Part shown: positions 50,711 through 53,660 of the stretch, piece after piece
Layout of the letters: each line of letters starts with the position of its first letter
Numbering within the stretch: the first letter of the stretch is position 1
Assembly (NCBI GenBank): GCA_902619375.1
Contig: CACNEB010000003.1
Span: 39,527-103,526, forward strand
DNA length: 64,000 bases
Origin: an uncultured Alphaproteobacteria bacterium
GTDB taxonomy: Bacteria > Pseudomonadota > Alphaproteobacteria > HIMB59
Direction: 5' to 3'
Made by a program: the position numbers and the translations under genes
The notes under the pieces: generated by a model
Seen by the model: only the letters and a program-made list of their open reading frames with translations
Told to the model about the DNA's origin: nothing
Databases searched by the model: none

Positions 50711-51748
50711 ATGCACAGAAGAGATTTTATAAAAAAGGTTATACTTTTTTCATTGTCCTTTGTAATTCTAAAGACAAAAATTATGGCAAACACTCTCTTT
50801 AAACCTTTCAATTTAGTAGATGGGATCTTTGTCAATAACTACATTTCACATAAAAGTAGTTTCAAAGATTTTTGGAAATGGAGGAAGGAATCAAATAAGC
50901 CAGAACCTATTACGTTTCCTATTATTGAAAATGACCCTGAATATTTAAAATCTAATAAATCTAAAAAAACAATTACTTGGGTTGGTCATTCAACATTCTT
51001 ACTACAGATTGATGGTATAAATATATTAACTGACCCCCATTTCACTAAAAGAGCTTCTCCTCTAAGTTTCATGGGACCTGCAAGAACAACACCTCCTGGA
51101 TTAAAAATAGAAGAATTGCCTTTTATTGACTTTGTTTTAATTTCTCATAACCACTACGATCATCTAGACTCAAAAACAATCCAACTTTTATTAAAAAAAC
51201 AAAATGTAAATCAACCTACATTTTTTGTACCACTAAAATTAAAAGATATTTTATCAAAATTAGGTGCAAGAAATGTTATGGAACATGAATGGTGGCAAAT
51301 GACTCAGTTCAAAAACTTAGAAATTCATTCCGTCCCAGTACAACATTGGAGTAAGAGAACATTTAACGATACCAATAAAACACTTTGGTGTGGTTGGGTT
51401 GTTAAAGCAAATAATTTTAAGTATTTTTTTGTAGGCGATACTGGATATTCAAAAGATTTTAAGGATATTCAAAAAAAATTTGGATCGTTTGACTTATCAA
51501 CGATACCCATAGGAGCATATGCCCCAAGATGGTTTATGAAAGACTCGCATTGTAACGTTGAAGAAGCAATTCAAATTCACAAAGATGTTAAATCTAAAAA
51601 ATCTATAGCTATGCATTGGGGAACATTTCAATTAACAGATGAACCTATGGATGAGCCTATAAAATTACTCCAAGAACTAACTAAGCAGTTAAAGATAAGC
51701 AAAGATGAGTTTTCTTATATGACTCACGGTCAAACAAGAAAAATTTAA
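50711..51748 (+). CDS. MBL-fold metallohydrolase, NAPE-PLD-like, with Tat-like RRDFIKK leader
   Basis: ITWVGHSTFLLQIDGINILTDPHF, LISHNHYDHLD, FVGDTGYSKDF, AMHWGTFQLTDEP. Confidence 0.9.
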   Translation: MHRRDFIKKVILFSLSFVILKTKIMANTLFKPFNLVDGIFVNNYISHKSSFKDFWKWRKESNKPEPITFPIIENDPEYLKSNKSKKTITWVGHSTFLLQIDGINILTDPHFTKRASPLSFMGPARTTPPGLKIEELPFIDFVLISHNHYDHLDSKTIQLLLKKQNVNQPTFFVPLKLKDILSKLGARNVMEHEWWQMTQFKNLEIHSVPVQHWSKRTFNDTNKTLWCGWVVKANNFKYFFVGDTGYSKDFKDIQKKFGSFDLSTIPIGAYAPRWFMKDSHCNVEEAIQIHKDVKSKKSIAMHWGTFQLTDEPMDEPIKLLQELTKQLKISKDEFSYMTHGQTRKI

Positions 51749-51921
51749 GTAAAATAATTATAGGCCTGATATGACAGCGTAATTACAATTACAATTAATG
51801 CCCATATACTTAAATTACTCAAAAACTGTTTAAGGGAAGAGTTTGTATCTAAAAAACGAGGTCCAACTAAAATCAGTAGACATATAAAATAGATAATAGG
51901 CATTATGATTTCAGCAGACAT
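51745..51921 (-). CDS. 58-aa two-TM small membrane protein, start/stop overlapped with upstream channel gene
   Basis: Not in ORF track; MSAEIIMPIIYFICLLILVGPRFLDTNSSLKQFLSNLSIWALIVIVITLSYQAYNYFT*; TAATG junction with the ion channel CDS. Confidence 0.65.
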   Translation of the reverse strand: MSAEIIMPIIYFICLLILVGPRFLDTNSSLKQFLSNLSIWALIVIVITLSYQAYNYFT

Positions 51922-52751
51922 TATTGATCTTTTTTTAGTTTATCTAAACTAATCTCCTCAGAAAATTGTTCATTTAACTTTTCAGCATTATTTCTGGTTT
52001 TTATCATATCATCCTTTTTTTCGTTCTGATTTACAACTACATCAACCAAAATTGCTATTAGAAGATTTAACATTGTAATAGCACAGACAATTATAAAACT
52101 AAAAAAATAAATCCATGCCCACCAATAAATATCTTGTAGAGGCAACATTACCTGTTCCCAAGATGATAATGTTAAAACTTGAAATAAAGTGATCATTGAA
52201 ATCCCCACATCAGACCATCTCTCGGGTATGCTATTTGAAAAGACTATTGCTCCAATAGTTGCATAAATATAGAGAATTATGAAAAGCAGCAAACTTACAT
52301 AAAAAACTCTTTTTAACGATCCAATCAAAGACTCAATGATTAATTTTAACTCAGGAATAATAGATATAACTCTCAAAACTCTGAATACTCTTAATAATCT
52401 CAAAAGAAGAAAACTGGAGTTGTTAGGTATAGGTATTAATGAGACCAAAACAATAAATGTGTCAAAAATATTCCAACCATTTTTAAAAAAATTTGATTTT
52501 TTCGGCTCTCCTATAAAACGAATTGAAATTTCTATTACAAAAAAAATAGTTATTAAATAATCAAGATATTTAATGAGCTCTCTTGAGAACTCTCCTAAAT
52601 TGTAAGTATTTAAACCGATAGTAAATGCATTAAATATGATGATAAATAAAACTGAGTATTGAAATAACTTGCTTTCTCTGATTTTAAAAAAGGTATGTTT
52701 CATATTTTTTAAGAATTTATTATCCAAAAAAAGAGTATATAAATCAACCAA
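51921..52751 (-). CDS. Voltage-gated ion channel, bacterial Nav (NaChBac)-like, atypical selectivity filter
   Basis: S4 LLLRLLRVFRVLRV, pore FQVLTLSSWEQVMLPLQ, S6 FIIVCAITMLNLLIAILVDVV, C-terminal coiled coil. Confidence 0.92.
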   Translation of the reverse strand: MVDLYTLFLDNKFLKNMKHTFFKIRESKLFQYSVLFIIIFNAFTIGLNTYNLGEFSRELIKYLDYLITIFFVIEISIRFIGEPKKSNFFKNGWNIFDTFIVLVSLIPIPNNSSFLLLRLLRVFRVLRVISIIPELKLIIESLIGSLKRVFYVSLLLFIILYIYATIGAIVFSNSIPERWSDVGISMITLFQVLTLSSWEQVMLPLQDIYWWAWIYFFSFIIVCAITMLNLLIAILVDVVVNQNEKKDDMIKTRNNAEKLNEQFSEEISLDKLKKDQ

Positions 52752-52752
52752 T

Positions 52753-52827
52753 GGTTCTGTGGTGAAACGGATATCACACTTGACTACGGATCAAGAATTC
52801 AGGGTTCGAATCCTTGCAGAACCGCCA
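52753..52827 (+). tRNA. tRNA-Arg (anticodon ACG), CCA encoded
   Basis: GGTTCTG...CAGAACC acceptor, anticodon arm CTTGA-CTACGGA-TCAAG, T-arm CAGGG-TTCGAAT-CCTTG, GCCA end. Confidence 0.93.
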
Positions 52828-52829
52828 TT

Positions 52830-53660
52830 TTAAATTTTTAAATTATCAATGAGTCTAATTTTGCCTTTATAGATTGCATAAAAAAGTCTCGACTCAGAAA
52901 CTTTACCATTGAAACTTAGGTCCTCATTATTTCTAAATTCGAAGTAATCAAATTCTTCAATATCTTGTTCGACAATAAAATCTTTGGCTTTTTGGTTTGC
53001 AGTATTAATATCAAATGATTTTTCTAAAGTTTTTAGAAAATTTTCTACTTTTTGATGAAAACTTACAAAATCTTGTATTTGTTTTTTACTTAATTTTTCA
53101 TTTCTCGATGAATAGGCAATGCCTTCTTCATTTCTTTTTGTAGGTACAGATACTATTTCTAAAAATTCATATTTTTCTTGAATAAATTTTTCAATTATCT
53201 TGAGTTGCTGAAAATCTTTTTCACCAAAATAAACCTTGTTACTTTTTACAATTGAAAAAAATTTATTTAGTACAGTGATTACACCATCAAAATGTCCTTT
53301 TCTGTATTTATCACAAAGAATATTATTATAATTATTATTTTTTAAAATAGTTTCATCTTTGTTGTAAATTTCTTCTGCTGATGGTTCAAATAATATATCT
53401 ACGTCGTTGTCAGAGCAAAAATCGTAGTCAAGGCCCTTATTCCTAGGATAAGATTTAAAATCTTCTTTACTGTTAAATTGTTTTTCATTTACAAAAATAC
53501 TTACAATAGTTTTGTGATTATCATTTTTTGATTTTTTTATCAGTTCTCCATGTCCCTTATGAAGGGCGCCCATAGTAGGAACAAAACCAATTGAGTATTT
53601 TCGATTTTGATAAGCAGTCAAATATAACTGTAAATTAGAAATGTCTTTAATTATCAACAT
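52830..53660 (-). CDS. panC: Pantothenate synthetase
   Basis: IGFVPTMGALHKGHGELIKKSK, VSIFVNEKQFN, YFGEKDFQQL, SSRNEKLSKKQ. Confidence 0.95.
   Translation of the reverse strand: MLIIKDISNLQLYLTAYQNRKYSIGFVPTMGALHKGHGELIKKSKNDNHKTIVSIFVNEKQFNSKEDFKSYPRNKGLDYDFCSDNDVDILFEPSAEEIYNKDETILKNNNYNNILCDKYRKGHFDGVITVLNKFFSIVKSNKVYFGEKDFQQLKIIEKFIQEKYEFLEIVSVPTKRNEEGIAYSSRNEKLSKKQIQDFVSFHQKVENFLKTLEKSFDINTANQKAKDFIVEQDIEEFDYFEFRNNEDLSFNGKVSESRLFYAIYKGKIRLIDNLKI

Follow-up and report, generated by a model that had tools for sequence, protein, structure and literature searches.

A SAR11 homologue of the sodium channel NavRh with a C-terminal tail most likely captured at a tRNA-Arg site

Introduction

The closest described relative of the channel reported here is NavRh from the SAR11 isolate Rickettsiales sp. 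HIMB114, whose crystal structure (4DXW) dates from 2012. In PMC4444806, a ring of serines is placed at the level of the NavAb high-field-strength site, while the glutamates of NavRh form an outer site, IonEX, three residues outward of the serine ring. Ca2+ at IonEX is described there as bound too strongly to move on, and external Ca2+ as blocking the flux of Na+. The carboxylates of the NavRh filter are also reported at the location of the NavAb carboxylates. When carried by NaChBac, the NavRh filter is Na+-selective according to PMC4444806 and PMC4225499, and simulations of wild-type NavRh (PMC5008630) yielded weak Na+/K+ selectivity. What does NavRh do in its own membrane? No current was obtained in mammalian or insect cells (PMC4225499), so recordings do not establish its native behaviour. 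Among channels with other filters, NavPp is permeable to Na+ and inhibited by Ca2+ (PMC7041947).

Here, we compare with these systems a channel gene in a stretch of 64,000 nucleotides (the window) and relate the unusual end of its product to the site at which the gene resides.

Results and Discussion

The gene comprises 260 codons from an ATG start on the minus strand (translation, FQVLTLSSWEQVMLPLQ; Table 1), and its reading frame stays open upstream via a TTG to position 52751, beside a tRNA gene. We consider it very probable that the product is a NavRh homologue of SAR11 that most likely passes Na+ and most likely gained its tail by capture at the tRNA-Arg site. The translation has the layout of a six-helix voltage-gated cation channel, and the features of the bacterial sodium channel (BacNav) fold are all present: an Ion_trans domain (Pfam, E=9.6e-47), the R-x-x-R repeats of S4 and the S6 asparagine. 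S4 arginines R102, R105 and R108 are invariant in an alignment of 34 sequences, and R111 is conserved in at least 90%. The best match among solved structures was 4DXW (phmmer, E=4.6e-96, 324 bits, residues 5-226), and when an AF2 monomer model (34 input loci, mean pLDDT 80) was compared with the PDB in Foldseek, all four 4DXW chains ranked first (best E=5.1e-16, 68% identity). An earlier note on this DNA had proposed a voltage-gated Na+-channel-like protein with intact S4 and S6, and both parts hold, with RLLRVFRVLR starting at residue 102 and Asn213 conserved in S6. Its reading of the filter as TLSSWEQ was exact in letters and coordinates (residues 178-184, running from 52172 to 52152).

Table 1. 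Coordinates of the channel gene, its landmarks and its neighbours in the window
Feature	Position	Strand	Basis or remark
Metallo-beta-lactamase-fold hydrolase, flank on the other side	50711..51748	(+)	Pfam PF12706 1.4e-39; same flank in sister genomes
58-aa ORF, two hydrophobic segments, start overlaps channel stop (TAATG)	51745..51921	(-)	No Pfam or NCBIfam match
NavRh-type voltage-gated sodium channel gene, 260 aa	51921..52703	(-)	ORF and translation; Pfam Ion_trans; phmmer 4DXW; AF2/Foldseek
Putatively captured C-terminal tail EKLNEQFSEEISLDKLKKDQ, residues 241-260	51924..51983	(-)	Absent from tail-less SAR11 channels; matches 3' end of small ORF
S6 pore-lining helix, residues 196-226, with Asn213	52026..52118	(-)	DSSP of AF2 model; alignment
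Selectivity filter TLSSWEQ, residues 178-184 (S180, S181, W182, E183)	52152..52172	(-)	Translation, homologues
S4 gating-charge core RLLRVFRVLR, residues 102-111	52371..52400	(-)	Regular R-x-x-R spacing
tRNA-Arg (acg), bounds the variable channel site on the left	52753..52827	(+)	ARAGORN
panC, pantoate-beta-alanine ligase, flanking gene	52830..53660	(-)	Pfam PF02569 7.5e-80; same flank in sister genomes

The likeness to NavRh is close: ~68% identity over S1-S6, the filter core TLSSWE, common residue numbers for S180, S181, W182, E183 and the S6 residue N213, four S4 arginines, no extra glycine after the filter, and membership of the same SAR11 clade. The sole difference in the filter is the residue after Glu183, which is threonine in NavRh (TLSSWET) and glutamine in the window channel; the gene neighbourhoods are unlike each other, and NavRh-type copies are without the 32-residue C-terminal tail. 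Our sample includes near relatives of the NavRh organism: in two genomes of the same class (G246 and G520, loci L116 and L117), the encoded channel is 99.5% identical to 4DXW. The earlier note had held the filter to be of an unknown class, a view it would give up if homologues made this a known, characterised one; the filter is already known, as it belongs to the NavRh class (4DXW, 2012), whose structure is published. Its description of the motif itself stands, in that the third-position glutamate is replaced by serine (S180) and an acidic residue follows three positions later (E183).

Canonical BacNav channels (NavAb, NaChBac, NavMs) share with the window channel the one-domain architecture of six helices, S4, the pore loop, the S6 asparagine and the fold match, but are ~31-38% identical to it. 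Their TLESW filter carries glutamate at position 3, where the window has Ser180, and a glycine follows the filter, whereas in the window channel no residue is inserted between filter and P2 and the alignment has a gap at the NavAb glycine column. Canonical channels end in a C-terminal neck and coiled coil; the last 20 residues of the window channel instead match an unrelated small gene. NavPp-like channels, with an AnclNav-type filter T[FL]EDWTD, are the nearest outgroup of the SSWE channels on our tree (mostly 38-47% identity) and likewise have no extra glycine, but differ by Glu3, Asp4 and Asp7 of the filter. CavMr, a native prokaryotic Ca2+ channel, is comparable in having a single domain, voltage gating and an altered filter; it has Gly4, in contrast to the serines at positions 3 and 4 (Ser181) of the window channel.

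How widespread is this filter? A channel match was obtained in 106/150 related genomes, and the homologue search that the earlier note had proposed returned T[LM]SSWE[QTN] in every SAR11 channel whose filter was read. Of 175 near-full-length loci in the comparison, several of which are duplicate retrievals from a single genome, 111 have TLSSWEQ, 9 TLSSWET, 7 TLSSWEN and 1 TMSSWEQ. The nearest relatives outside SAR11, mostly from Gammaproteobacteria and Campylobacterota, carry T[FL]EDWTD, and TLESWSM is the filter of most other alphaproteobacterial relatives. The phylogeny that had likewise been proposed, a maximum-likelihood tree of 75 rows, unites the 30 SSWE rows including NavRh in one clade (support 100/100) that excludes the EDWTD and ESWSM channels. 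The EDWTD group adjoins this clade, a placement sensitive to midpoint rooting and to long branches, the latter flagged by a warning of the program. Read along this tree, the glutamate switched once from filter position 3 to position 6, at the point where the SSWE (SAR11) clade arises. The NavRh filter is no quirk of one isolate: it is carried by the intact SAR11 channels recovered, with an apparent single origin beside the T[FL]EDWTD channels. SSWE channels also turned up in a genome of another alphaproteobacterial family (L118) and on a contig carrying the label Neomarinimicrobiota (L040), either as mis-binned SAR11 contigs or through transfer.

Across 226 core codons of copies 89% identical to each other, pN/pS was ~0.09, and among intact channel copies the core values mostly fell between 0.05 and 0.14. 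The channel codons are under strong purifying selection and the protein is kept; together with a frame that is uninterrupted in dozens of separate genomes, this means that the ORF is not a chance one. Might the gene nonetheless be a decaying or non-conducting remnant? NavRh is silent in heterologous cells (PMC4225499), one genome of the same genus (G038) holds a broken copy and several others of the genus show none. However, the low core pN/pS and the intact frames at 94 tail-bearing loci (several being duplicate pulls of one genome) make a remnant highly improbable, and a SAR11 study reporting on coastal genera lists a voltage-gated sodium channel with a pN/pS of 0.016 and connects it with salinity changes, although this may be another orthologue (PMC12636525).

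By what mechanism would it operate? Judging from the family, four subunits would form the pore, and depolarisation would shift the four-arginine S4, upon which S6 would open. Ser180 would line the narrow level at which NavAb has its glutamate, and the four Glu183 side chains would together form a carboxylate ring, drawing in hydrated Na+ and binding Ca2+ so firmly that this ion blocks the pore instead of passing through it. The ion behaviour of NavRh comes from the papers cited above; from it we infer, by homology, that the window channel most likely favours Na+ over Ca2+ as the permeating ion and perhaps discriminates between Na+ and K+ less well than NavAb. Alternatively, the shifted acidic ring might result in a Ca2+-permeable or non-selective cation channel, not a Na+ channel. 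Such an outcome would accord with a serine in place of the high-field-strength glutamate, with the weak Na+/K+ selectivity of wild-type NavRh in simulations (PMC5008630) and with NsvBa, which shows that selectivity can vanish with small filter changes (PMC4225499). Yet, NaChBac with the NavRh filter is Na+-selective and Ca2+ blocks instead of permeating (PMC4444806, PMC4225499), while the native Ca2+ selectivity of CavMr needs a glycine at position 4 (PMC7041947), where the window has serine; we hence regard this alternative as unlikely and favour a Na+-passing channel. The caution of the earlier note that selectivity cannot be assumed was justified insofar as it is unreadable from NavAb alone, but the NavRh literature—the Na+-selective graft and the Ca2+ block—already supplies part of the answer.

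The feature that sets the window channel apart is its end. SAR11 channels outside one sub-clade, including the copies 99.5% identical to NavRh, stop right after S6 at 223-233 aa, whereas the window channel and its closest relatives run ~32 residues further and end in EKLNEQFSEEISLDKLKKDQ. In the maximum-likelihood tree, the tail-bearing rows group as a single clade (100/100) within the tail-less ones, with a tail-less channel from G023 as sister row (support 100/78), and in all three sub-lineages of this clade a 58-aa ORF starts in overlap with the channel stop codon (TAATG). The tail codons are conserved, with pN/pS of 0.03-0.27 over 20 codons, a range based on few changes, and the AF2 model draws the tail, at moderate confidence, as a continuation of S6 (pLDDT about 70-75). 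No relics of the tail were seen 3' of the stops of tail-less channels in the loci compared, and our literature search returned no description of a C-terminal tail or fusion of SAR11 NavRh-type channels. In this genus, no genome has more than one match to the DNA pattern of the tail motif; outside it, matches were confined to three genomes of another family, all inside a valyl-tRNA-synthetase-like protein. A widespread C-terminal tag, which we had entertained as an explanation for the motif, was dismissed on account of these counts.

Where could the tail have come from? Six genomes of the same genus in which no channel was detected (G010, G012, G021, G033, G043 and G045) have another small ORF ahead of the 58-aa gene, with the same TAATG overlap. 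This ORF has ~60 codons, is coiled-coil-like by eye and ends in LNDQFSEEINLEKLKEDK or similar. The order at the site in such sister genomes is tRNA-Arg, small gene, 58-aa membrane protein and metallo-hydrolase, and in G012 and G021 the flanks match those of the window, with panC and the tRNA-Arg on one side and the metallo-hydrolase on the other. DNA homology between the window and two such loci (L171, L172) ends on the tRNA side at ~52750 (L172) or 52716 (L171), restarts at 51974 inside the channel ORF and continues through the 58-aa gene. From these breaks, the channel body is delimited as an insert of ~0.73 kb that reaches from the tRNA to the last codons of the small gene. Integration sites often hold a partial tRNA copy beside their cargo; in L171 and L172, the stretch between the tRNA and the small gene is taken up by other cargo, at whose inner border 64 bp of the tRNA-Arg and its flank recur as a partial copy. 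The variable site by tRNA-Arg(acg) (window 52716-52827) has the look of a small hot spot for integration in this SAR11 genus. Together, this suggests a scenario wherein the channel gene would have inserted at the tRNA-Arg site and fused in frame with the final codons of the small gene already resident there; the tail, on these comparisons, was most likely captured upon landing.

Conversely, the tail could have belonged to this lineage of channels from the outset, with the small coiled-coil gene as a leftover after deletion of the channel. Both states do have the site, the 3' end and the TAATG junction in common, and both are confined to one genus. Three observations speak against this order of events and lead us to consider it improbable: the tail-bearing clade sits amid tail-less channels on the tree, the G023 sister among them; in G023 and G013 the tail motif ends a DUF4177-like protein, assigned with Pfam scores short of the curated cut-off and encoded at an unrelated locus, the channel of G023 itself being tail-less; and the coiled-coil ORF has an N-terminal half of its own, unlike the channel. 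The tail-less sister, the motif on the DUF4177-like protein and the rarity of the motif render capture more likely than a channel loss that left the tail behind, with the absence of the channel being uncertain where genomes are incomplete (several are 50-95% complete). As for the DUF4177-like genes themselves, they lie at L182:1495-1716 (-) and L185:1498-1710 (-), beside RNase E/G and a PRA-PH/MazG-like gene.

If capture holds true, a lineage without the usual C-terminal domain would have regained a cytoplasmic tail by taking over the end of a small gene in frame, which would make it a clear, small case of a channel gaining a new cytoplasmic end. Only tentatively do we suggest that the captured tail now works, with assembly, gating or partner binding—perhaps of the 58-aa membrane protein—as candidate functions. 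Tail-bearing and tail-less orthologues represent a natural pair for the effect of C-terminal tails on gating.

The 58-aa protein was matched in 112/150 related SAR11 genomes and is conserved with or without a channel; it had no match in Pfam or NCBIfam and no confident one among PHROGs. We had presumed a resemblance to the N-terminus of the TIGR02281 aspartic protease, but this family model is without a match in the genome and the ORF matches no library. Nor does it qualify as a dedicated subunit of the channel: at channel loci it strictly accompanies tail-bearing channels, but it is also found without a detected channel and, elsewhere, far away from one. The 58-aa ORF is therefore an older neighbour and not a specific partner of the channel. 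Carriage by phages was rejected as well, no relative being present in viral contigs.

Several other channels deserve mention in their own right. The disrupted same-genus copy (L110, G038:C2:39800-41500) is interrupted by several stop codons. Two alphaproteobacterial channels (L119, L124) have the filter TLEGWAD, with Gly4 as in the Ca2+-selective CavMr, and are candidate native Ca2+ channels; another (L071) has the filter TLDGWAG and sits on a very long branch.
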